From Sinomonas notoginsengisoli (GTDB taxonomy: Bacteria; Actinomycetota; Actinomycetes; Actinomycetales; Micrococcaceae), in assembly GCF_021554725.1 (NCBI RefSeq), contig NZ_JAIZDP010000011.1, forward strand, positions 1-64,000: a stretch of 64,000 bases of DNA, read 5' to 3'. The notes below the pieces were generated by a model. That model worked only from the letters and a program-made list of their open reading frames with translations. It was not told the origin of the DNA and did not search any database. This document shows, piece by piece, positions 48,462 to 63,994 of this stretch. Made by a program: the position numbers and the translations under genes. Position 1 is the first letter of the stretch, and each line of letters starts with the position of its first letter.

Positions 48462-49454
48462 TCAGGCGGCGCGGACATCCTCGACACGTTGGGTAGCTTC
48501 CTTTGCATAAGTTGCATTGAGCTCGATGCCGACCCAGTTCCGGTCGAGTTCTTCGGCGGCGACTGCGGTGGTTCCGCTGCCGATGAAGGGGTCGAGTACG
48601 ACCCCCGGCTCCGGGGCGCCGATGTGGCTGCACTGCGGCTGAACAGCAAGGCGGACAGCCGTCTGTCCGAGCCGCCTGATAGGGCTGACCCAGGGCATCC
48701 GGCAGGTGCGACAGCGGGCCGCAGGGGTTCCGGCAAGGATGCACCGTTCGGCCAACGCTCGCGGGAAGGCGGCGTGATGGCTGCCAGTGCCCGGGACTGT
48801 GGGGACGGTCCAGACGTCGCCGGGGTTCTTTCCGAGTGGATGGCCGATTTTTCCCTCCTGCTGCAGCCGTCGCAGCCCGTTGGTGCGGTTGGCATTGGGA
48901 CCGCGCCAGTCCTGCCGCTTGGGTGGATGGCGACTGCCGGGCGGAGCCCTTCGTCCTGGTCTGCTGGCGTGCGGGAGGCGGATGGCGTCGAGGTCGAAGT
49001 GGTAGCGGGATTGCTTGGCGAACAGGTAGATGACTTCGTGAGCGGCGGTGAGGCGGTCACGAACGCTGGAGGGCATCGGGTTCGGTTTGGCCCACACGAT
49101 GCTGTTGCGGAGGATCCAGCCATCCTGCTGCAGTAATCTGGCGACGCGTTCGGGAGCGAGCAGGAGGCTCTTGGTTGGCGCACCTTGGCGTGGGTGCATG
49201 GCGTAGGTGTCGCCGAGGTTCAGCCAGAGCGTGCCGGTCGGGACGAGGACGCGGTGGACCTCGCGGGCGATGTCCCGGATGGCAGCGGCCCAGTCGTCGA
49301 CGCGGTGCTCCAGCCCCAATTGCTCGCCGTTGCCGTAGTCCCGGAGGCGAAAATACGGCGGGCTGGTCAAGCACATGTCCACGCTCGCGGTCTCAAGCTT
49401 CTTGAGGGTGGCGAGGGCATCGCCCACGAGAATGCGGTTGAGTGACTTAGCCAT
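48462..49454 (-). CDS. Beta-class site-specific DNA methyltransferase (N4-C or N6-A)
   Basis: 330 residues. Catalytic motif IV LTSPPYF near residue 30 precedes motif I DPFIGSGTTAVAAEE near residue 290, the motif order of beta-class enzymes. TSPPY fits N4-cytosine as well as N6-adenine methylation. The zinc-like CRTCRMPW (about 250) is in the variable region. No matching endonuclease gene is next to it, so it is probably an orphan that marks the element DNA. It overlaps the replication-relaxation gene by 8 nt. Confidence 0.85.
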   Translation of the reverse strand: MAKSLNRILVGDALATLKKLETASVDMCLTSPPYFRLRDYGNGEQLGLEHRVDDWAAAIRDIAREVHRVLVPTGTLWLNLGDTYAMHPRQGAPTKSLLLAPERVARLLQQDGWILRNSIVWAKPNPMPSSVRDRLTAAHEVIYLFAKQSRYHFDLDAIRLPHASRPGRRAPPGSRHPPKRQDWRGPNANRTNGLRRLQQEGKIGHPLGKNPGDVWTVPTVPGTGSHHAAFPRALAERCILAGTPAARCRTCRMPWVSPIRRLGQTAVRLAVQPQCSHIGAPEPGVVLDPFIGSGTTAVAAEELDRNWVGIELNATYAKEATQRVEDVRAA

Positions 49455-50421
49455 GGCTGTATCCCTCCATCAGGCGGGCGGCCGTTTCCTGGAGCGCCGT
49501 GACGACGTAAGCGCCGTGTGGGAACTGGGGGCTTCGTTCTAGCGTGGTGGCGAGGCTGTCCCGGCGACGCTCAGCAGTTTCTGGGCGAGCGGCGTCCATG
49601 GCCCAAACCACCTTCGGATAGCTGCCGTAGGCGCGTTGCTCTGCCCCGGTGGCGCGGTAGGCCTCGTAGGCGGCGCATTTACTGAGGAGCGTTGGCAGGC
49701 TCTCGTGCCCGAGGTCGACTTCGATGAAGAAGGCCTCGACGTCTTGATCACCGGGATGCTCGGCCAGCTCGACGTAGAGATCGGGGCGCAGGGTCTGGGG
49801 AGCACCGAGGAGATCGGTGTAGCGGCGTCGGGCTTCCCGCTCCGGGGCGAGGCGAACGACTTCAGCATCGTGCACTTCGGCTTCCTGTAGCAGCGCGACG
49901 GCGAGGTCTGCGACGGCCAGGGTGTGATCGACGAACCGCGCAGACGGTTCCTCAGGGCGCCATCGTCGGCGGCCGAGTTGCTGCTCGCGCAAGATGCGGT
50001 CGCCTGCGGCATCAACGTAGTAGACCATGCCTTCCGAGCCAGATCGGATGCCGCCGACGCGGCGCTTCAGGACACCGAGGATGCGCAGCTCTCGCAGCCG
50101 GGCAAGCACGCGGCGGCAGGTCCGGGCCGCCGAGGCAGACGTTTGGTGCGCTGTGAAATGGAAGGTGCGCAGATGCCCGGCAGTGAGGAACCGGTAGCGA
50201 TCAACCGAGGCGAGGACTTCTATGTCCCGAGCGCTGAGGTTGGCGGCGATGTCACGGAGCTGACGGTGGCTGATGCGGTTCCCTGCATGAGGACCGGGAT
50301 GCGGAGCAGCCTTGGTATTCGGCGCCACTATCCGGCCGGACTTGGCTTTGACCTGCGAAGACGTGTCCTCAGACCTCGACGCGGGCGGGTAGCCGATCGG
50401 TAGGTTATCGAGAGCGCTCAT
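49447..50421 (-). CDS. Replication-relaxation family protein
   Basis: 324 residues. A winged-helix N-terminal half (DRYRFLTAGHLRTFHF, RRVLARLRELRILGVL) and a C-terminal restriction-fold-like domain with RPDLYVEL and FFIEVDLGHESL fit the actinobacterial Replic_Relax family (PF13814), found on plasmids and integrative elements. Its exact biochemical activity is not established. It overlaps the coupling-ATPase gene by 4 nt and the methyltransferase gene by 8 nt, so the three are translated together. Confidence 0.8.
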   Translation of the reverse strand: MSALDNLPIGYPPASRSEDTSSQVKAKSGRIVAPNTKAAPHPGPHAGNRISHRQLRDIAANLSARDIEVLASVDRYRFLTAGHLRTFHFTAHQTSASAARTCRRVLARLRELRILGVLKRRVGGIRSGSEGMVYYVDAAGDRILREQQLGRRRWRPEEPSARFVDHTLAVADLAVALLQEAEVHDAEVVRLAPEREARRRYTDLLGAPQTLRPDLYVELAEHPGDQDVEAFFIEVDLGHESLPTLLSKCAAYEAYRATGAEQRAYGSYPKVVWAMDAARPETAERRRDSLATTLERSPQFPHGAYVVTALQETAARLMEGYSHG

Positions 50422-52592
50422 GGCTGACTCCTCCGTCGCTTGGTAGTGCCCGCAGTGGCATCGGATTGAGGAGTAATGGCATGTCTCAGGTGCTCGTCGA
50501 CCTCGCTGATCGGCGTGCCGTAGGCGGTCCGACTAGCCCGCCGCACCCCCTCGGGCGAACTCGTCGAGCCGGGAATGTCGAGAGTGCGTCCCGATGCCCA
50601 GTCGGTCACTGCGCCGTGGTGGACGAGCTGGGCGTAGATATGCCGCGCCGGGAGAGCCATGAAGTCTTCTACTTCGAGACCCGGCGCCATGGCTGCAGCT
50701 GCTCTGGCGTCGCGAGCCGCGAGCTGGAAGAAGACCCGCGAGCGGCAATTGGCCTCGAAGGCCGTCCGCATGCTTTGGGGGAGTTGATCAAGGTACTGGT
50801 GGGCGACGTGGAAGGCCGCGCCGAGGCTCCTCGAGGTGGCGAGGGCATCGCCGAGATCCATTGGCAACCGCAGGTATTCCTGGACCTCGTCGAGTACGAC
50901 GGTGACGACCTGGCGGTCGTGGGCTGGAACGCTGGCGCGCTCTTGGATCGCCTGCCATAGTTCGGCCACAACCAAAGCCCCGAGCAGTTGCGCAGATTCG
51001 GGGCCGATCACACCCTTTTGGAGTGGAACGAGCAGGATCTTCCCCTCGGTGAGGACCTGTCGGACGTTGAACCGAGGGGCGGGCTGGGCCAGGATGCGGC
51101 GCAGGTGCGTATCGAGGAGTGGCCGCACCTTGTTCATCAGCGGAGCGACAATCTGCGCGGTGGCGTCCGGCGAGAGCTGGTCGAACCAGTGCCAGAATGG
51201 TCCAGCCGAGATCGGATCGGCAGCGGCAATCGGCTGGACAAGGCGCGCGCGGAAGACACGGTTGCTGAGCAACATCGGCAGCTGAGCCAAACTCGCGCCG
51301 TCGGTCTGCGCGAGCGCAGCGAGGGCGTGGCGGAGGATGTCACTACTCCGTGGGCCAAGCTGATCGCCATAGAGGGCGCGGAAGGTACCGAAGAGCTGGT
51401 CGGCGACGAGTGCCGGGCTGCGGCCGTGTCCGTCGACTGGATTGATGCCAACCGGAGCGTCGTCAAGTGGGTCGACCAGGACGACGTCTTTGACTCGGTC
51501 GGCGGGGATGTGCCGCAGCAGGTCGCGTATGAGGTCCTTAGGTTCAACCACGGCTATGCCCCGCCCTGCTTTCATGTCGCCGATCAGCAGATTGAGCAGC
51601 ATGGACGACTTGCCAACGCCGGTCGGCCCCATTGCCCAGACATGTCGGGTGCTGTCGGCGATTGTGAGCCCAAGTGGCGTGTGTTCGGTACCGGGGGCTG
51701 TCGATTCGGCGATGATTCGGTCACTGGCGGTGGCGGTAAAGGAAGGACGAATCGGGCGAGGATGGGCGGGCGGCTGCCCGGGATATACAGCATCGGTTCT
51801 CGTTGCTGGCCACGCGCTGAGGCGTCCAACTTCGGTCACCGTCAGATGCTGTCCAACGGGAGTGAGGAGAGGCCACGTATTGCTGGGTTGGTTGAGGCGG
51901 TCGGGGTGTTCAGGGCGAAACGTAAAGCGCATCCCAGGGGCGCTGAGCGAGCGGAAAGCGTTCACGACGTTCCGGACGAGGTTCAGAGCGCGCGCTTCAT
52001 CGCCAGCGTGCACACCAATGCGGACAACCGCGGCAAAGCCGGGTTCGGCCCGTTTGAGTTCGACGCTGCGGCGTACCCCTGTCCGCTGCTCGGTCTGAAC
52101 TCCGCTCGCGAGGAGCGATGCGAGGCCCTGATCGATTTGGGGCTGATCTCTTGGCGTCAGGCGCGGGCTGATGCGCGGGCCCAGGACGACTTGGACGACG
52201 AGCCGCTCCGAGCCCTGTACGGCCGTGAGTGCGGCAAGGATGGCGCGAGTTGAACCGTCGGCATCCTGAGCCTGGAGGGGTTGGGCTGCAGGGGAGAAGG
52301 CCACCCTGCCCGCCGAGGCAGACGGAAGGCGGTCTTCGTCCGCGTCGACGACGAGTGCGTCGTCTATCAGCTGTTCGATGTCGCGCCGAACAGCCCCAGC
52401 GTGGCGGCGCTGGGTGCCGACGAGGTACTGCACCCCTGTTCGGTCGGCCCGGGCCTCAAGCACAATCAGTGGAGCGTGGATTTGGGCGGCCCACGAGCGC
52501 AGCAGGCCGATTGTTTCGGCGTCGTCGAGGGGCTGGGGCCAGAAGATGCGCTGCCAAATGAGGCGGCTGAGATGATCATCGCGGCTACTCAC
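50418..52592 (-). CDS. Conjugative coupling ATPase (VirD4/TraG/HerA-like)
   Basis: 724 residues. Walker A GPTGVGKS at 322-329 and Walker B TVVLDEVQEYL (D568, E569). No transmembrane helix is evident at the N-terminus, unlike classical VirD4, which suggests a soluble TraG/TraM-like pump ATPase. The first ~280 residues are unassigned. Adjacent replication-relaxation and RHH genes fit DNA transfer or mobilisation of the element. It overlaps the 68-residue gene upstream by 8 nt. Confidence 0.82.
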   Translation of the reverse strand: MSSRDDHLSRLIWQRIFWPQPLDDAETIGLLRSWAAQIHAPLIVLEARADRTGVQYLVGTQRRHAGAVRRDIEQLIDDALVVDADEDRLPSASAGRVAFSPAAQPLQAQDADGSTRAILAALTAVQGSERLVVQVVLGPRISPRLTPRDQPQIDQGLASLLASGVQTEQRTGVRRSVELKRAEPGFAAVVRIGVHAGDEARALNLVRNVVNAFRSLSAPGMRFTFRPEHPDRLNQPSNTWPLLTPVGQHLTVTEVGRLSAWPATRTDAVYPGQPPAHPRPIRPSFTATASDRIIAESTAPGTEHTPLGLTIADSTRHVWAMGPTGVGKSSMLLNLLIGDMKAGRGIAVVEPKDLIRDLLRHIPADRVKDVVLVDPLDDAPVGINPVDGHGRSPALVADQLFGTFRALYGDQLGPRSSDILRHALAALAQTDGASLAQLPMLLSNRVFRARLVQPIAAADPISAGPFWHWFDQLSPDATAQIVAPLMNKVRPLLDTHLRRILAQPAPRFNVRQVLTEGKILLVPLQKGVIGPESAQLLGALVVAELWQAIQERASVPAHDRQVVTVVLDEVQEYLRLPMDLGDALATSRSLGAAFHVAHQYLDQLPQSMRTAFEANCRSRVFFQLAARDARAAAAMAPGLEVEDFMALPARHIYAQLVHHGAVTDWASGRTLDIPGSTSSPEGVRRASRTAYGTPISEVDEHLRHAITPQSDATAGTTKRRRSQP

Positions 52593-54791: not shown

Positions 54792-56360
54792 ATGGCCGAA
54801 ACCACCAAGGAAGCGCAGCGCGCGGAGCTGCACAAGACGATCTGGCGGATCGCGAACGACCTGCGCGGCAGCGTGGATGGCTGGGACTTCAAGAGCTACG
54901 TGCTCGGCATGCTGTTCTACCGCTTCATCTCGGAGAACCTGACGGCCTACCTAAACGAGAGCGAGCGCTCGGCAGGCACCGCCAACTTCGACTACGCCTC
55001 GCTGCCTGACGACCAAGCAGAGTTCGGACGAAAGGAGACGGTTGCTGAGAAGGGCTTTTACATCCTTCCTTCTGAGCTCTTTGTCAACGTCCGCAATCGG
55101 GCGGCGCACGACGAGAACCTCAACGAGACCCTTGCCGCCATCTTCAAGAACATCGAAGGCTCAGCGACAGGTACCGATAGCGAGGATGACCTCAAGGGAC
55201 TCTTCGACGATCTTGACGTCAACAGCTCCAAGCTTGGCAACAGCGTCGAGAAGCGCAACAAGAAGCTATCGGGACTGCTCGACGCCATCGGCGACTTGCC
55301 GCTCGGCAACTTCCAGGACCACACCATCGACTTGTTTGGCGACGCCTACGAGTACCTGATGCAGATGTACGCCTCACAGGCTGGCAAGTCTGGGGGTGAG
55401 TACTACACACCACAAGAAGTAAGCGAGCTGCTGGCCCGAATCGCCGTGGCCGGTAAGACCTCGGTAAACAAAGTGTACGATCCCGCTGTCGGCTCGGGCT
55501 CGCTTCTCCTAAAGTTCGCGAAGGTGCTCGGCAAGGAAAACGTCCGTCAGGGATTCTTCGGCCAGGAGATCAACCTGACGACGTACAACCTAGCGCGGAT
55601 CAATATGTTCCTGCACGACATCAACTACGAGAAGTTCGACATTCGTCACGGCGACACGCTCATAGACCCTCAGCATGAGGACGACGAGCCGTTCGAGGCA
55701 ATTGTGTCCAATCCGCCTTACTCTATCAAGTGGGAAGGCGACGCCAATCCGTTACTAATCAATGACTCGCGTTACTCGCCTGCTGGCGTGTTGGCTCCCA
55801 AGTCGAAAGCCGATCTCGCCTTCACCATGCACATGCTGTCATGGCTAGCGGTCAATGGCACTGCCGCTATTGTCGAATTTCCTGGCGTGCTCTACCGCGG
55901 TGGAGCGGAAGGCAAGATTCGTAAGTATCTCATCGACAACAACTACGTCGACACTGTCATCCAGCTCCCGCCTGATCTATTCTTCGGCACCACGATCGCG
56001 ACATGCATCCTCGTACTGAAGAAATCCAAGAAGGACAACTCGATCCTTTTCATTGACGCCTCAAATGAGTTCGACAGGATCGGCAACAAGAACAAGCTCA
56101 CCGAACAGCGCCGCCAGAAGATTCTCGATACGTTTATTGCCCGCGAGGACGTCGACCACTTCGCCAAGCTCGTTCCCAACGATGAGATCGCCGAACGCGA
56201 CTATCTGATCTCTGTATCCTCTTACGTTGATGGTGAAGATAGCCGCGAAGCGACAGATATTACTGCTCTTAATGCTGAGATTGCCCGCATCGTGGCCCGG
56301 CAGACCGAGCTCCGTGTCTCGATCGATGAAATCGTTGCCGATCTGGAAGGTGCATCGTGA
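54792..56360 (+). CDS. hsdM: Type I restriction-modification methyltransferase subunit HsdM
   Basis: 522 residues. N-terminal helical domain (FKSYVLGMLFYRFISENL), SAM motif I DPAVGSGS at 230-237 and catalytic NPPY at 307-310 (N6-adenine). The length and the LADFQDHTIDLFGDAYEYLM-type region match the family. It methylates the bipartite site set by HsdS. Its end overlaps hsdS by 4 nt (GTGA). GC content is lower than the backbone. Confidence 0.95.
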   Translation: MAETTKEAQRAELHKTIWRIANDLRGSVDGWDFKSYVLGMLFYRFISENLTAYLNESERSAGTANFDYASLPDDQAEFGRKETVAEKGFYILPSELFVNVRNRAAHDENLNETLAAIFKNIEGSATGTDSEDDLKGLFDDLDVNSSKLGNSVEKRNKKLSGLLDAIGDLPLGNFQDHTIDLFGDAYEYLMQMYASQAGKSGGEYYTPQEVSELLARIAVAGKTSVNKVYDPAVGSGSLLLKFAKVLGKENVRQGFFGQEINLTTYNLARINMFLHDINYEKFDIRHGDTLIDPQHEDDEPFEAIVSNPPYSIKWEGDANPLLINDSRYSPAGVLAPKSKADLAFTMHMLSWLAVNGTAAIVEFPGVLYRGGAEGKIRKYLIDNNYVDTVIQLPPDLFFGTTIATCILVLKKSKKDNSILFIDASNEFDRIGNKNKLTEQRRQKILDTFIAREDVDHFAKLVPNDEIAERDYLISVSSYVDGEDSREATDITALNAEIARIVARQTELRVSIDEIVADLEGAS

Positions 56361-57613
56361 GCCGGATCGACGACCTGATTAAGGAATTGGCTCCTAAAGG
56401 AGTTCATTTCAAGACGCTCGGCGATACCGGCGAATTTATTCGAGGCAATGGATTACAGAAGTCTCACCTCACTTCTGAGGGTGCGCCGGCTATCCATTAC
56501 GGCCAAATCCACACGCACTACGGAACCTGGACCGATTCTACGAAGTCCTTCACCGATCCTGCATTGGCGGCGAGGCTGCGACGCGCAAAGCCCGGGGATC
56601 TAATCATTGCAACGACCAGTGAGGACGATGCTGCTGTCGCCAAGGCCACTGCCTGGATTGGCGAGGGGGAGGTGGCTGTCAGTGGTGACGCCTACATCTA
56701 CCGGCATACGCTTGATCCGCGCTATGTGGCGTACTTCTTTCAAACGGAACAGTTCCAGAATCAGAAGAGCAAACATATCACCGGCACCAAGGTCCGTCGC
56801 GTCTCGGGAACGGCGCTTGCGAAGATTCGCATCCCTGTACCACCTCTAAAGGTGCAGCACGAGATTGTGCAGATTTTGGACAGCTTCATCGAGCTCGAGA
56901 AAGGGCTCGAGAAAGAGCTCGAGAAAGAGCTCGAAGCGCGGCATCTTCAGTATGCTCACTATCGCGACGAGCTCCTTGCCTTCTCAAATAATGACACAAA
57001 ACGAATACCCATGGGTGAGGCTGGCGTATTCTTCGGTGGGCTTACCGGTAAGTCCAAGGCAGATTTTAGCAACGGAAACGCTCGTTTTATATCCTACGTC
57101 AACGTCTTCAACAACATCGCTGTCGACCTCGGCCGCGATGACTATGTGCGGGTTGAACCAGGGGAGCGTCAGCGCGCTCTCGCTCGCGGGGATGTCATCT
57201 TCACCGGTTCGTCCGAAACACCCGAAGATGTCGGCATGTCCTCAGTCGTTACCCGCGAGGTGGCCCAGCCGACCTACCTTAATAGCTTTAGCATCGGATA
57301 TCGCCTTCACGATCCTGAGTTGCTCGATCCGGAATTCGCTAAGCATTTATTCCGGTCGAGTTCCATGCGTCAGCAGATCGTTAAGACTGCAAGCGGCGTG
57401 ACGCGTTTTAATGTCTCAAAGGCCCGTCTTGCTAAAGTCGAGTTTCCCGTCCCCAGCAGGGATGAGCAGTCGCACATTGCTGGGATTCTTGATAATTTCG
57501 AAGCCCTCGTCAACAAACTCAGCGCGGATCTTCCAGCTGAGCTTGCAGCTCGTCAGGCGCAATACGAGCATTACCGAGAGATGCTCCTAAGCTTCGAGGA
57601 TGCAACGGCATGA
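56357..57613 (+). CDS. hsdS: Type I restriction-modification specificity subunit HsdS
   Basis: 418 residues from GTG 56357. Two target-recognition domains (about 15-160 and 215-380), each followed by a conserved helical spacer (IPVPPLKVQHEIVQILDSF; FPVPSRDEQSHIAGILDNF). The central spacer contains the repeated LEKE units (residues 179-194). It determines the DNA sequence of both methylation and cleavage. The lower GC and Asn/Ile-rich composition contrast with the coupling genes to the left. It overlaps both neighbours by 4 nt. Confidence 0.94.
   Translation: MSRIDDLIKELAPKGVHFKTLGDTGEFIRGNGLQKSHLTSEGAPAIHYGQIHTHYGTWTDSTKSFTDPALAARLRRAKPGDLIIATTSEDDAAVAKATAWIGEGEVAVSGDAYIYRHTLDPRYVAYFFQTEQFQNQKSKHITGTKVRRVSGTALAKIRIPVPPLKVQHEIVQILDSFIELEKGLEKELEKELEARHLQYAHYRDELLAFSNNDTKRIPMGEAGVFFGGLTGKSKADFSNGNARFISYVNVFNNIAVDLGRDDYVRVEPGERQRALARGDVIFTGSSETPEDVGMSSVVTREVAQPTYLNSFSIGYRLHDPELLDPEFAKHLFRSSSMRQQIVKTASGVTRFNVSKARLAKVEFPVPSRDEQSHIAGILDNFEALVNKLSADLPAELAARQAQYEHYREMLLSFEDATA
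56891..56938 (+). repeat. 12-bp tandem repeat in the hsdS central spacer
   Basis: Units GAGCTCGAGAAA (56891-56902), GGGCTCGAGAAA (56903-56914), GAGCTCGAGAAA (56915-56926) and the degenerate GAGCTCGAAGCG (56927-56938) encode ELEK-GLEK-ELEK-ELEA. Four-codon units keep the frame when copies are lost or gained. In EcoR124I/II a comparable 12-bp repeat (TAEL) sets the spacing between the two half-sites. Confidence 0.85.
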
Positions 57614-60600
57614 GTGAGTCGCCTGCTCGCAAGTATGATCCGATCGCCGTCTCCTCTGAGAGCACCGTTGTAGCCGAGTACGACTCCGATGCCCAGTCCG
57701 CGACTAGTTATCAGTCGGAAGCGGACCTCGAACGTGAGTTCATTAAGCTTTTGGAGTCGCAGGCGTACGATTACCTGCCGATCAAGTCCGAAGCCGATCT
57801 CATCGACAACCTTCGGCACCAACTTGAGCTGCTGAACAAGATGACGTTCTCGGACGCCGAGTGGCAGCGATTTTTCAACGAACGGGTCTCCGGCGCGAAT
57901 GACGGTATCGTCGAGAAGACGGTTCGAATCCAAGAGGATCACATTCAGCTCTTGACGCGAGACGATGGATCGCCCAAGAACATCGCTCTGATTGACAAAA
58001 AGAACATCCACAACAATCGGCTTCAAGTCATCAACCAGTATGAGGTTGCTCAAGGCGGCAATAGCGGAGGAAAGTACGCCAACCGGTACGATGTAACTGT
58101 TTTGGTTAACGGCCTACCTATGGTCCACGTTGAGTTGAAGCGTCGCGGCGTGGACATCCGTGAGGCGTTCAACCAGATCAACCGATACCAACGAGACAGC
58201 TTTTGGGCCGGCTCAGGGCTGTTTGAGTACGTCCAGCTGTTCGTGATCAGCAACGGCACCCTGACGAAGTACTACTCGAACACAACTCGCCGTCAGCACA
58301 TCTCGGACAGCGCCAGTGCAAAGAAGGCCAAGCGGCCGACCTCCAACTCATTTGAGTTCACATCCTGGTGGGCCGATGCGACCAATCGACCAATCCAGGA
58401 TCTAACCGCCTTCGGCAAGACGTTCTTCGCCAAGCACGCGCTGCTCAACATCCTCACTCGCTACTGCGTCCTCACGGCCGACCGCATGCTGCTCGTCATG
58501 CGCCCCTACCAAGTCGTCGCGACCGAACGCATCCTTCAGAAGATCGAGATATCGACTAATTACAAGCAGCTCGGCAGCGTCGCCGCCGGTGGGTATGTCT
58601 GGCATACGACCGGATCAGGCAAGACACTGACCTCCTTCAAAACGGCGCAGTTGGCGAGCAAGCTGGGAAGCGTCGACAAGGTGCTCTTTGTGGTCGACAG
58701 GAAGGACCTCGACTACCAGACAATGCGCGAGTACGACCGGTTTGAGAAGGGTGCGGCCAACTCCAACACATCGACGGCGGTACTCAAGAAGCAACTGGAG
58801 AACTCGCAGGCCAAGATCATCATTACGACGATCCAGAAACTGGCGACTTTCATCAACGCCAACAAGGGCCACAGCATCTTTGACGGTCATGTCGTCATCA
58901 TCTTCGACGAGTGTCACCGCTCGCAGTTCGGCGACATGCACACCGCGATCACCAAGGCGTTCAAGCGCTACAACCTGTTCGGTTTCACCGGAACACCGAT
59001 CTTCTCCGCCAACGCGGGCAGTGGCGGCAACCCGCACCTGAAGACTACTGAGCAGGCTTTTGGCGACAAGCTGCACACCTACACGATCAAGGACGCGATC
59101 AACGACAAGAACGTCCTGCCCTTCAAGGTCGACTACATCAGTACGATCAAGGTCGGTGCGCCTGACGACAAGCAGGTGTCCGCGATCGACACCGAGCGAG
59201 CGCTCCTGGCCCCCGAGCGGGTCAGCAAGATCGTCAGCTACACGCTTGAACACTTCGACCAGAAGACCAAGCGCGCCAGTGGCTACAGCCACTCGGTGAT
59301 CACGAACGTCGAAGACCTCGTCGGGCGCAATCCGAAGGTCGCCGACGAGATCAAGCAGAGCAATCGCGTCAAGGGATTCAACGCGTTGTTTGCGACAGCC
59401 TCCATTGATGCAGCGCGTCGGTACTACACCCAGTTCAAGCTGCAGCAGGAGGACCTCACTCCCGACCGCCGGCTCAAGATCGGCCTGATCTACTCCTTTG
59501 CCGCCAATCCGGACTTGGAAGATGGTGCACTCGATGAGGAGGACTTCGACACGGATGCCCTGAGCGGCGACGCCCGCTCGTTCTTGGAAGAGGCGATCCA
59601 GGACTACAACCGCATCTTCGGCACCAGTTACGACACCTCGGCCGAGCGCTTCCAGAACTACTACAAAGACTTGTCGCTGCGGATGAAGAACCGCGAGATC
59701 GACCTGGTCATCGTCGTCAACATGTTCCTCACCGGGTTCGACGCGACCACGCTCAACACGCTATTCGTCGACAAGAACCTCCGCTCGCATGGGCTGATCC
59801 AGGCCTACTCGCGCACCAACCGCATCCTGAACTCGGTCAAGACCTACGGCCACGTCGTCACTTTCCGCGACCTCGAGGAAGAGACCAACGATGCGATCGC
59901 CCTCTTCGGTAACAAGGACGCCAAGGGCATCGTGCTGCTGAAGCCGTACGGCGACTACTACAGCGAGTACAGCGAGAAGGTTGACGAGCTCCTCACCCAG
60001 TTCCCACTCGGAACCCAGATTGAGGGTGAAGCCGCCCAGAAGGAGTTCATCAAGCTGCTCGGTGCCATCCTGCGGCTGCAGAACATCCTGACCTCGTTCG
60101 ACGAGTTCGCCGGAAACGAGATCCTGACCGAGCGGCAGAACCAGGACTACCGCAGCATCTACCTCGACCTCTACGCCGAGTTCCGCAAAGACGGCGACTC
60201 AGACAAGGAATCGATCAACGAGGACGTCGTCTTCGAAATCGAGCTGGTCAAGCAAGTCGAGATCAACGTCGACTACATCCTGATGCTCGTCCAGAAGTAC
60301 CGCGACGAGCACGGCGATGGCGAGGACAAGGAACTGCGCGCCGAGATAACCCGCGCGATCGACTCCAGCCCATCGCTCCGCAACAAGCGCGACCTCATCG
60401 AAGACTTCGTCGACCGCGTCTCGGCCAAGGGCGACGTCGACGACGAATGGCAGCGCTACATCGCCGAACGCCGAGAATCGGAGCTCTCCCAGATCATCGA
60501 CGAAGAAAACCTCCGCCCGGAGGAGACCAGGAAGTTTGTCGACGCCTCGTTCCGAGAGGGATCGCTGCGCACCACCGGCACAGCGATCACAAAGGTGCTG

Positions 60601-60720
60601 CCACCAGTCTCACGCTTCTCTGCACGAGGCGGTCACGGTGAGAAGAAACAGCGCGTGCTGGCGAAGCTCGGCGAGTTCTTTGAACGATTCTTTGGTCTGA
60701 GTTCGAGTGAAGGAAACTAG
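57610..60720 (+). CDS. hsdR: Type I restriction endonuclease subunit HsdR
   Basis: 1036 residues. N-terminal nuclease motif D161...E175-x-K177 (VELKRRG), DNA-translocating SF2 helicase with Walker A TTGSGKT (334-339 region) and DECH box (433-436), then GFTGTPIF and the QAYSRTNR motif VI. The C-terminal helical domain binds HsdM. It cleaves unmodified DNA far from the site. It overlaps hsdS by 4 nt and is followed after 31 nt by the AAA ATPase gene. Confidence 0.95.
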   Translation: MSESPARKYDPIAVSSESTVVAEYDSDAQSATSYQSEADLEREFIKLLESQAYDYLPIKSEADLIDNLRHQLELLNKMTFSDAEWQRFFNERVSGANDGIVEKTVRIQEDHIQLLTRDDGSPKNIALIDKKNIHNNRLQVINQYEVAQGGNSGGKYANRYDVTVLVNGLPMVHVELKRRGVDIREAFNQINRYQRDSFWAGSGLFEYVQLFVISNGTLTKYYSNTTRRQHISDSASAKKAKRPTSNSFEFTSWWADATNRPIQDLTAFGKTFFAKHALLNILTRYCVLTADRMLLVMRPYQVVATERILQKIEISTNYKQLGSVAAGGYVWHTTGSGKTLTSFKTAQLASKLGSVDKVLFVVDRKDLDYQTMREYDRFEKGAANSNTSTAVLKKQLENSQAKIIITTIQKLATFINANKGHSIFDGHVVIIFDECHRSQFGDMHTAITKAFKRYNLFGFTGTPIFSANAGSGGNPHLKTTEQAFGDKLHTYTIKDAINDKNVLPFKVDYISTIKVGAPDDKQVSAIDTERALLAPERVSKIVSYTLEHFDQKTKRASGYSHSVITNVEDLVGRNPKVADEIKQSNRVKGFNALFATASIDAARRYYTQFKLQQEDLTPDRRLKIGLIYSFAANPDLEDGALDEEDFDTDALSGDARSFLEEAIQDYNRIFGTSYDTSAERFQNYYKDLSLRMKNREIDLVIVVNMFLTGFDATTLNTLFVDKNLRSHGLIQAYSRTNRILNSVKTYGHVVTFRDLEEETNDAIALFGNKDAKGIVLLKPYGDYYSEYSEKVDELLTQFPLGTQIEGEAAQKEFIKLLGAILRLQNILTSFDEFAGNEILTERQNQDYRSIYLDLYAEFRKDGDSDKESINEDVVFEIELVKQVEINVDYILMLVQKYRDEHGDGEDKELRAEITRAIDSSPSLRNKRDLIEDFVDRVSAKGDVDDEWQRYIAERRESELSQIIDEENLRPEETRKFVDASFREGSLRTTGTAITKVLPPVSRFSARGGHGEKKQRVLAKLGEFFERFFGLSSSEGN

Positions 60721-60751
60721 TGTACGGGCGTGCGATTAGTAAGGACGAGGG

Positions 60752-63301
60752 ATGACTAGCGAAGAGAGACCCGTCGTGGACCCTCGCATCAGCCTTTCTA
60801 CTTGGGCGAACAAACAATCGGAGTGGGTGCGCTCCATCGTGAGGCAGGTCATAGCCACCGGACGTCCACTGACGCAGGACGATATCGACGGCGTATACGA
60901 CCTGTTCCGGCAAGAAAAAGGACTCGACAGAAGGGAGCTTCCTTCTGAACCGCCGCTCTCAGTAGAGGCAAGTGCCGAATCGGCAGAGGCACCTTTGGTG
61001 ATCACCCGTCTTTCGGATATCCACGGTGTGAATGCGCTCGTTTCTGGCTCAGTGATCGAGCCGCACGATGGTCTCACTATTCTTTACGGAGAGAACGGTA
61101 CAGGTAAGACCGGATACTCGCGAATATTCAAGGCGCTTGCGGGAAGCCGTACAGCTGATCACATTCTGAGTAACGTAAACACCGCAACGCCAGAGGCGCA
61201 GTCGGCTTTACTCAGCTATCGGGTTGGCGCGATTGACGCAACCTTCACCTGGAAGGGTGAAATCGGGAAAGCCCCGTTTACAAGGATGTCTATTTTCGAC
61301 AGCCCAAGTGTTAACTTCCACGTCGATGCAGACCTTGAATATGTCTATCGGCCATCCGCGCTAGCGCTGTTTGACCACATCAGTGCAGGCATACGTGGAG
61401 TTCAGAGCAAGATTAGTGATTCGACCAGAGAGCTCTCCTCTGGGTCTGCGTCTCTCCTAAGTCGCTTCGCGCGTGATAGCAGTATCTACCCGCAGATTGA
61501 AACCCTGGGCGCATCCACTGATCTCCCCGCGCTCGAAGCGAGGGCAGATAGCGCCCCCGATACAGATGAACGGATTGATAACGCGCGTCGGGCTGTCGCC
61601 GCGTTGGAGGCAAACACGATCGCCTCCGAGATCACTACGCGGCAACGGCTCGAAAGAGCGCTCGAGCAAGCGGAAGCAGCGGCCACCAAACTATCTGTCT
61701 TCGATGGAGGGGCATACGACGCAGCACTTGCTCAGCTCGTTGAGCTTCGCAGTGACCTCGCCACGTTCCGGGGGGAGCTATTTCAGGCAGCCAACCTGCC
61801 AGCGGAGCCTGATGATACCTGGAGCGCCTTTGTGGCGAGCGGCGATGCATACCGGCAACATCTCATCGACCTCGGAGTTCACAACCATGAGGTTTGCCTG
61901 TACTGTCGCCAGACGCTGTCAGCAGCCGCTGCGGAGCTTCTCGGAAAGTATCGGGAATTTCTCGAAGACAAGATCAGCGCCGACATCCGGGTGGTATCAG
62001 CGCGGATTGAGCGAGACAAATCTGCCCTCGTCGTCGCGACAAATGACCTCGAGTCGCTCGTCGCAGACTACGCCGAGGAGGCCGATACCCTCCCGATCTT
62101 AGTCGATCTCCGTTCCGTTGCGGATGTAGCCGCAGTAGCTCGGGATGTCAGCAAAGCTGGGACTTCAGTCGGTAACCAACTGGACGTCGCTGATGACGAG
62201 TTGATCGCTCGGCTTCATGCTGCCCGCGTCAAGATTCAGGGGGAAATCACACAGCTGCGGGAACAGGCTAAAGATCGCGAAAAGGCGCTCATCGAAAAGC
62301 GGATCGAGCTCCGTGAACTTGTTGCTGCTATTGAGCTTGCTCAATCGCTTCCGGAGATAAGGGTCCAGGTTGGCCGCGCGAAGGAAAGTGATCAACTTAC
62401 GACGCTAGCAAAGCCCTTGGCTGGGCTTCTACGTGCTCTTACCGATCAGGCGAAGGCCGCTAGTGATGAGCTCATTAATCAGAACTTCGACATGCTATTC
62501 GACGAAGAGTGCAGGGCGCTGCGGGCGCCTGCCCTCAAACTGGAGTTTGTTGGCAGGCAGGGCAAAGCGCAGCGTCGTAAGACCATTGTGAAACATAAGC
62601 CCTCCCGGGTGCTATCTGAGGGTGAACAGAAGGTGCTCGCGATGGCGGATTTCCTGGCCGAAGCTCGGCTCGCCGGAATCACTGCACCCGTGCTCTTCGA
62701 TGACCCAGTCTCGAGTCTCGACCACCGGAGAATCAACGAGGTCGCTCAGCGCATCGTTAATCTCTCGACAAGCAATCAGGTCATCGTTTTCACGCACGAC
62801 ATCCTCTTTGCCACAACTCTTCTGGCACTGTCGGAGAGTACGGGGCGTTGCAGCTATCTACACATCACAGACGATGAGGGCAAAGGCCAGGTTACAAGGG
62901 CGAGTGGCCCACGTTGGGATACGCTCAAGAATCTCACGTCGAATATCAACAAGACGATCCAAGCTGCAAAGGCCGCAACTGGCGAAGCCCGTGCTGCCCT
63001 TGTACGGGAAGGATTCGACTGGATTCGTTCATGGTGCGAGGTGTTTACTGAAGTCGAGCTGCTTCAAGGCGTATCTCAACGCTACCAGCCAAATATTCGT
63101 ATGACAGTTCTGCCCAAGATCAAGGCCGGTGCTCTCCCTGATGCCATCAGCGTAGTTACTCGCGTTTTCGATGACGCGTGCCGCTACATCCCTGGACACT
63201 CGCAGCCGTTGGCGACACTTGGGGTGGCGCCAACCCTCCCGGAGCTCGAGGCCCGTTGGCAAGAGCTGCAAGAGGCAAGAAAGCAGTACTTGGCAGCCTG
63301 A
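60752..63301 (+). CDS. RloC/PrrC-like AAA ATPase with zinc-hook CxxC (putative anticodon nuclease)
   Basis: 849 residues; AAGGA 7 nt before the ATG. Walker A GENGTGKT (113-120), a long coiled-coil middle (about 270-560) broken by Cys382-Leu-Tyr-Cys385, an ABC signature LSEGEQ (621-626), Walker B VLFDDP (647-652) and a H-loop FTHD. This is the AAA_13 layout of RloC, a Rad50-like ATPase with a zinc hook. The C-terminal ~100 residues contain Arg759-x3-Glu763 and, further on, His816, reminiscent of the PrrC/RloC anticodon-nuclease triad, but the Glu-His spacing is longer than in PrrC. Its position right after hsdR matches the PrrC-EcoprrI and RloC contexts. tRNA cleavage is an inference. Confidence 0.72.
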   Translation: MTSEERPVVDPRISLSTWANKQSEWVRSIVRQVIATGRPLTQDDIDGVYDLFRQEKGLDRRELPSEPPLSVEASAESAEAPLVITRLSDIHGVNALVSGSVIEPHDGLTILYGENGTGKTGYSRIFKALAGSRTADHILSNVNTATPEAQSALLSYRVGAIDATFTWKGEIGKAPFTRMSIFDSPSVNFHVDADLEYVYRPSALALFDHISAGIRGVQSKISDSTRELSSGSASLLSRFARDSSIYPQIETLGASTDLPALEARADSAPDTDERIDNARRAVAALEANTIASEITTRQRLERALEQAEAAATKLSVFDGGAYDAALAQLVELRSDLATFRGELFQAANLPAEPDDTWSAFVASGDAYRQHLIDLGVHNHEVCLYCRQTLSAAAAELLGKYREFLEDKISADIRVVSARIERDKSALVVATNDLESLVADYAEEADTLPILVDLRSVADVAAVARDVSKAGTSVGNQLDVADDELIARLHAARVKIQGEITQLREQAKDREKALIEKRIELRELVAAIELAQSLPEIRVQVGRAKESDQLTTLAKPLAGLLRALTDQAKAASDELINQNFDMLFDEECRALRAPALKLEFVGRQGKAQRRKTIVKHKPSRVLSEGEQKVLAMADFLAEARLAGITAPVLFDDPVSSLDHRRINEVAQRIVNLSTSNQVIVFTHDILFATTLLALSESTGRCSYLHITDDEGKGQVTRASGPRWDTLKNLTSNINKTIQAAKAATGEARAALVREGFDWIRSWCEVFTEVELLQGVSQRYQPNIRMTVLPKIKAGALPDAISVVTRVFDDACRYIPGHSQPLATLGVAPTLPELEARWQELQEARKQYLAA

Positions 63302-63336: not shown

Positions 63337-63735
63337 CTACAAGTCGGCGGGGGGCCGTGACGTGAGGAAGGCCTGAGCAGTGCCGTAGCTACAGCCAACC
63401 TCGGCGGCGATAGCACGGATCGCCCTGCCCTGTCCGCGCAGCTGGAGCATGCGGGTCTTCTGCTCGGCGGTCAGACTTTGCTGGCGCATTGCAATGCCGC
63501 GTTCCTTAAGAAGACGTAGCAGCGAGGACTTGGCGATGCCGCACTCGGCAGAGAGGGCCGTGGTTGGCTCTCCTGCCTCGTAGCGCGCGATGAGATTGTC
63601 GAGCACGTCAGCGCCAAGCCGGTCAACGAGCCGATAGCGCTGGCGAGGAGCGGGCAGGGCTACCGCCGACTGGGTGTGCGAGGTGTCCGCGGTCTGGCTT
63701 TCGATTGCAGCAGCGATAGCTTCGAACTGGCTCAT
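63337..63735 (-). CDS. Double-HTH DNA-binding protein of mobile-element type
   Basis: 132 residues from ATG 63735, which lacks a clear ribosome site; TTG 63780 would add 15 residues. Two HTH-like modules are visible: EPTTALSAECGIAKSSLLRLLKERG and GRAIRAIAAEVGCSYGTAQAFL. This arrangement occurs in small proteins next to recombinases and in resolvase C-termini. It converges with the AAA gene (35-nt gap). Role unknown; possibly an element regulator or a remnant of a recombinase. Confidence 0.6.
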   Translation of the reverse strand: MSQFEAIAAAIESQTADTSHTQSAVALPAPRQRYRLVDRLGADVLDNLIARYEAGEPTTALSAECGIAKSSLLRLLKERGIAMRQQSLTAEQKTRMLQLRGQGRAIRAIAAEVGCSYGTAQAFLTSRPPADL

Positions 63736-63814
63736 TTTGTGGAGGGCATGCTTGGAATACTGTGTAAGCAGCTCGACCAAGAATAAGAATCATTTTCATT
63801 AGACCTACCGGTCG

Positions 63815-63994
63815 CAACAGGGGTCGTCACAGCGTTGTGGCGACTCCTTTAATTTGCTGCGGTACAGATTTAGTGGCGATGAGGCAAGAATCGGAGCCTT
63901 TCACCACCCCTGTTAAAAGGTTTGAGTCCAGCCAGGTGTTTTGGCTGCGGTACGGGTTTTTGAAGCTAGCTCCACAACACTACCACCCCTGTTA
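63815..63994. repeat. Scattered 13-bp motif ACCACCCCTGTTA near the right edge
   Basis: ACCACCCCTGTTA occurs directly at 63903-63915 and 63982-63994; an inverted copy with two mismatches (CAACAGGGGTCGT) lies at 63815-63827. A second pair, GCTGCGGTAC, occurs at 63856-63865 and 63944-63953. No gene is seen in 63781-64000. These may be recombinase or replication-protein binding sites of a further element; the window ends before the pattern can be judged. Confidence 0.45.

Follow-up and report, generated by a model that had tools for sequence, protein, structure and literature searches.

The 64,000-nucleotide (nt) stretch analysed here (the window; contig NZ_JAIZDP010000011.1 of Sinomonas notoginsengisoli, positions 1 to 64,000) carries, directly behind a Type I restriction-modification (R-M) operon, a gene whose 849-residue product very probably belongs to RloC, a known family of bacterial defence enzymes that cut tRNA. 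With a rough probability of 0.68, this protein would be an ATPase-gated tRNase with a DNA-end trigger, combining a Rad50-like ABC ATPase, a zinc hook and an Arg-Glu-His nuclease domain. The RloC-family gene of the window is well conserved, and its setting is one known from published rloC genes; its architecture, conservation and operon position can be read directly from the DNA and its relatives. Surveys count RloC among the defence systems, but one of them states that its function remains unknown (PMC12447246).

RloC features of the 849-residue protein

RloC proteins are described as having 658-897 residues, an ABC ATPase split by a coiled-coil insert with CX2C, and a C-terminal Arg-X3-Glu-X36-52-His, in which Ser often precedes the His (PMC2610378). 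All obligatory sequence items in the available text of this description are found in the window protein, i.e., a length of 849 residues, a CX2C-split ABC ATPase, and the C-terminal triad R759-X3-E763-X52-H816, whose X52 is the upper limit of the published range. The Ser, which is not obligatory, is absent, since Gly815 precedes H816 and Ser817 follows it. The original prediction, made from the sequence alone, had proposed an RloC-like zinc-hook ATPase with a C-terminal nuclease triad; this identity is borne out, and Walker A, the ABC signature, Walker B, CLYC, R759-x3-E763 and H816 all lie at the residues that it named (Table 1). Residues 680-683 read FTHD. In the structural model, the hook is flanked by helical stretches (291-373 and 391-574), both in pieces and with a predicted local distance difference test score (pLDDT) of approx. 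50-75. Two features, R777 and an N-terminal extension, were absent from the original prediction.

Relatives occur in 184 of 72,556 plasmid records (12 were fetched), in 3/296 genomes of the phylum at E 1e-30, in 6/297 of the order at 1e-25, and in 2/394 of the class and 3/345 of the family at 1e-60; each of the genome counts includes the window's own genome, and the samples overlap. A scan of genome contigs with the single window protein gave one short match in the ATPase region. Among viral contigs, a broad alignment (A2) found 37 loci, of which 25 have an open reading frame (ORF) matching at 1e-8, 20 of these longer than 700 residues; a narrow alignment (A1) found no relative there, and the phages collection gave no match for either of the two RloC-type clades distinguished below. 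Two of the viral copies (L054, 2943-5639, and L061, 5995-8149) are split over two ORFs and are apparently broken.

Forty sequences were aligned (the window protein, 20 viral and 19 others), and 38 remained after L074 and L077 had been dropped as lying outside the branch. Both Cys of CxxC, E763, R777 and H816 are each present in all 38 of these proteins, which exceed 700 residues and include that of the window, whereas R759 is present in 35 (Lys in L024, Ser in L028 and L029). Such conservation is more than chance. When 18 sequences were aligned, no column past residue 682 was invariant except those of E763, R777 and H816. R777 is thus more strictly kept than R759, the expected catalytic residue. 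In the other clade, represented by 11 RloC-type proteins, the Arg, Glu and His of the triad are all invariant.

These 11 proteins stand in, by their architecture, for Geobacillus kaustophilus and Acinetobacter baylyi RloC. Comparison of the branch with them by hhalign (18 vs. 11 sequences) gave 99.7% and 6e-26, with a weak match for the C-terminal part alone. The PADLOC model PDLC04888 (PDC-S06) covers residues 15-846 of the window protein with 403 bits, i.e., nearly its full length, and other PDC-S06 models cover L038-L040 of the other clade; both clades therefore stand under one PADLOC name. The family is thus already in PADLOC, but as a candidate defence family whose entry gives no mechanism and whose models also span the other clade. 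Pfam AAA_13 likewise matches L038-L040 over most of their length, these being RloC-architecture proteins chosen by AAA_13, and among the best 25 of 26 NCBIfam matches of the 849-residue protein no family lies above its cut-off.

The window protein shares with RloC the split ABC ATPase, the CX2C hook, R-x3-E-x36-52-H, the size range and the occasional Type I/III R-M linkage. It differs from G. kaustophilus RloC, which has its hook at 288/291 and its triad at 692/696/737 (PMC2610378), in approx. 70 extra N-terminal residues, a hook at 382 instead of 288, a Glu-His spacing of 52 instead of 40, an extra invariant Arg (R777) and no Ser before the His, all by published residue numbers. By position, and compared on residue numbers only, G. 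kaustophilus RloC fits the other clade. With PrrC, the window protein has in common an ABC ATPase, a C-terminal R-x3-E...H and linkage to hsd genes, but PrrC has 341-416 residues and lacks the zinc-hook insert (PMC2610378), whereas the window protein has 849 residues and the hook. The PADLOC PrrC model matches it at 647-696 only, in the ATPase and not in the nuclease part. The hsd loci of PrrC are of Type Ic, and that of the window is assigned to Type I as a whole.

The C-terminal helical domain, the putative nuclease, is probably, though not firmly, of HEPN type. Its model is a helical bundle (pLDDT 87.7; predicted template modelling score 0.83), for which HEPN ranks first in fold comparison, but weakly and tied with other bundles. 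The R-x4-6-H motif of HEPN is present as R811-x4-H816; the R811 column holds Arg in 17/38 and Lys or Arg in 27/38 branch proteins (background 23% and 38%). The nuclease domains of PrrC and RloC have been assigned to the HEPN superfamily (PMC3710099), and the modelled HEPN-like bundle does not refute a C-terminus of the RloC/PrrC type. A phmmer search of solved structures gave no clear hit to the nuclease part of the window protein, and one with an RloC-type protein found no relative; matches of residues 756-848 to 1wfr and 2cx7 (E 0.08-0.09) were taken as chance. The C-terminal model found nothing in BFVD at E <= 0.001.

A branch with an N-terminal extension

Judged from the tree and the N-terminal extension, the window protein does lie in a branch apart from other RloC-type proteins. 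Walker A lies near residue 101-123 in 35/38 branch proteins vs. approx. 30-37 in 9/11 others. L012, L021 and L059 (a short protein) deviate in the branch, as do L042 and L047 in the other clade, in some cases perhaps because of the choice of start codon. In a FastTree analysis of 51 sequences, the two clades are separated, with a support of 0.999 for 37 branch members and 0.866 for 38 when L024 is included. L011 and the window protein group together (0.98) within a cluster of eight (1.0) that has three named members, all of them Actinomycetota.

A possible new branch had also been proposed originally, on the ground that the distance between Glu and His is longer than in PrrC. The separate branch stands, on the extension and the tree, but the spacing was rejected as a reason, because X52 falls within the published X36-52 of RloC. 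The spacing is 48-53 in the 38 branch proteins vs. 38-49 in the 11 others. No experiments on branch members were found in the literature searched, which included PMC11514479 and PMC12322248 and reached few subscription journals, and the branch seems to be unstudied.

Proposed mode of action and linkage to restriction-modification

In the mechanism judged most likely, the protein would be silent in healthy cells. DNA ends, which might come from phage-degraded or restricted DNA or from double-strand breaks, would be bound by the ATPase head and would set off ATP hydrolysis; this signal would pass through the hook and coiled coil to the C-terminal domain, which would cut tRNA in the anticodon loop and thereby stop translation. 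The DNA-end trigger, the tRNA cleavage and the abortive outcome would carry over by analogy from Geobacillus and Acinetobacter RloC. This follows the account of RloC, the best supported one, in which linear DNA opens an internal switch run by the ATPase, tRNA is cleaved at the wobble position and translation is arrested. Purified G. kaustophilus RloC requires linear DNA, and in R-M mutants of A. baylyi, DNA breaks activate RloC, which cuts tRNA-Glu and tRNA-Gln; cleavage there affected only a small share of these tRNAs, and no clear benefit was seen (PMC3874168).

An RloC-type protein co-produced with the Type I enzyme would back restriction up. Such co-production is probable, because the gene begins 31 nt behind hsdR and no recognisable terminator lies between them; co-transcription is itself presumed from this arrangement. 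The linkage to a Type I operon, claimed in the original prediction along with the 31-nt distance, was confirmed, since hsdM, hsdS and hsdR match PADLOC Type I models and the 849-residue ORF follows hsdR directly. Linkage to hsd genes is a known feature of RloC, as eight of 72 rloC genes lie in R-M loci of Type I or III, and the name itself stands for restriction linked orf (PMC2610378).

For the branch as a whole, 45 loci were inspected (19 in L011-L029, 22 in L049-L070, three in L091-L093, and the window), several with short flanks and four (L054, L061, L063 and L066) broken or partial. Neighbouring genes were identified in phmmer searches that used nine reference proteins, including two pairs drawn from the loci L011 and L017. 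Adjacent R-M genes were found in at least 6/45 loci, a lower bound because only seven of the references are R-M proteins; the systems of the window and L069 are Type I, and those of L011, L017, L028 and L091 are Type III. PADLOC profiles confirm the R-M system at all of these except L091. At four of these loci, the gene comes immediately after that of the restriction subunit (at 31 nt in the window, 16 in L011, 10 in L091 and 151 in L028), whereas it precedes mod in L017 and follows hsdS in L069. Nine close members (the window, L011, L012, L013, L025, L026, L091, L092 and L093), with 55-61% identity to the window protein, comprise one linked to Type I, two linked to Type III and six with no R-M genes shown.

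The available text of PMC2610378 and PMC3874168 raises the question of whether an R-M enzyme controls RloC or whether RloC answers only DNA ends. PrrC is held inactive by binding to its linked HsdMSR complex, from which phage anti-restriction proteins free it. That the window protein works in this manner, as had been suggested for a second line of defence that acts when restriction is blocked, is distinctly unlikely, and its silencing by the Type I enzyme, carried over by analogy, is doubtful. The 31-nt linkage to hsdR speaks for it, as does the 56% and 45% identity of the window HsdM and HsdR to their counterparts in L069, where PrrC lies beside a branch RloC in an hsd locus. Nonetheless, RloC is rarely linked to R-M genes (the 8/72 given above), adjacent R-M genes in the branch are of two types, the window gene stands behind hsdR whereas prrC in L069 sits between hsdS and hsdR, and RloC of A. 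baylyi is still triggered when R-M genes are mutated, although the authors of that study do not exclude R-M control during infection (PMC3874168). Conversely, the branch nuclease might be coupled to the success rather than the failure of restriction, sensing the ends made by Type I/III enzymes and priming translation arrest, with the N-terminal extension as a part that could serve in docking; this is improbable, but if it were true, cutting an incoming genome would also prime translation arrest. An hsdR-linked member with close relatives that are Type III-linked or have no R-M genes in view offers a natural and direct test of R-M control.

Two further alternatives concern the C-terminal domain. 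There is a low but real chance that the protein is an ATPase-gated RNase whose target is not the anticodon loop but another tRNA site, rRNA or mRNA: HEPN-type domains cleave many kinds of RNA (PMC3710099), and the invariant set of the branch is E763-R777-H816, compared with Arg, Glu and His in the other clade. R-x3-E...H is, on the other side, the published triad of anticodon nucleases, and it is kept in 35/38 branch proteins. A Rad50/SMC-like protein for DNA repair or DNA sensing, with a C-terminal domain that is not a nuclease, is very improbable; the body of the protein is indeed Rad50-like and some relatives lie beside SbcD-SbcC-like pairs, but the putative catalytic residues are almost totally conserved and the distribution is patchy, including plasmids and viral contigs. 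The ATPase-gated tRNase answering DNA ends is the preferred reading.

The locus and the neighbourhoods of relatives

The 849-residue ORF has an ATG start, and the sequence AAGGA at 60741-60745 ends 6 nt upstream of it, a plausible ribosome site. The terminator scan of the region found no terminator-like site in the gap between hsdR and this ORF; a weak site on the + strand (60656-60673) lies within the end of hsdR, and the strongest of the region, a 13-pair stem at 63819-63848, is downstream of the gene. Such sites are about as frequent as by chance (12 found vs. 8.1 +/- 2.7 in shuffles). A small convergent ORF of helix-turn-helix/resolvase type lies behind the RloC gene, and together with this stem, just behind it, spans 63337-63848. 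On the - strand, 48462-52592 carries a DNA methylase gene, a Replic_Relax protein gene and a gene like those for TrwB/TraG-type coupling proteins. Given these upstream genes (48-53 kb), the defence island might be part of a conjugative element.

Table 1. Type I genes, the 849-residue protein and its parts in the window
Feature	Position	Strand	Basis
hsdM, Type I modification subunit	54792..56360	+	PADLOC MTase_I 1.8e-134; TIGR00497 hsdM 7.3e-225, above NCBIfam cut-off
hsdS, Type I specificity subunit	56357..57613	+	PADLOC Specificity_I 2.7e-99; NCBIfam below cut-off only
hsdR, Type I restriction subunit	57610..60720	+	PADLOC REase_I 1161 bits over 33-1029; TIGR00348 8.6e-165, above cut-off
RloC-family protein (very probable), 849 residues	60752..63301	+	PADLOC PDC-S06 PDLC04888 5e-121; Pfam AAA_13 1.2e-14, above cut-off
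N-terminal extension, approx. residues 1-80, three helices 11-19, 24-36, 42-55 (model)	60752..60991	+	absent from 9/11 other RloC-type proteins
Walker A GENGTGKT, residues 113-120	61088..61111	+	conserved
Zinc hook CLYC, residues 382-385	61895..61906	+	CxxC in 38/38 branch proteins
ABC signature LSEGEQ, residues 621-626	62612..62629	+	motif and alignment
Walker B end LFDDP, residues 648-652	62693..62707	+	motif and alignment
C-terminal helical domain, residues 722-849, with R759, E763, R777, R811, H816	62915..63298	+	conservation and model

The viral contig IMGVR_UViG_3300027985_001840 (L069, 3243-12585) holds hsdM, hsdS, a branch RloC, PrrC and hsdR in one Type I locus, in which two genes of anticodon-nuclease type thus adjoin and hsdR is truncated where the retrieved sequence stops. 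Its PrrC (PADLOC 4.7e-144) has R310-x3-E314-x31-H346, a spacing of 31 compared with 52 in the window protein. Among E. coli genomes, none of the 21 records matching by blastn covers 80% of this RloC-PrrC pair.

Other neighbours of relatives are of different kinds. An RloC-type gene lies beside an SbcD-SbcC-like pair in L018 (4048-11634), L052 (5983-13095), L056 (5983-13072) and L048 (95-7539), three of these being of the branch and one, divergently oriented, of the other clade; Pfam confirms the pairs of L052 and L056, and those of L018 and L048 are taken from record annotation. The RloC gene of L056 has a 4-nt overlap with that of SbcD. A BREX BrxL gene is directly upstream of the RloC relative in L052 (3912-5981), and the relative in L029 (5713-14007) lies between genes for an AAA_15-type ATPase and a DEAD/ResIII helicase.
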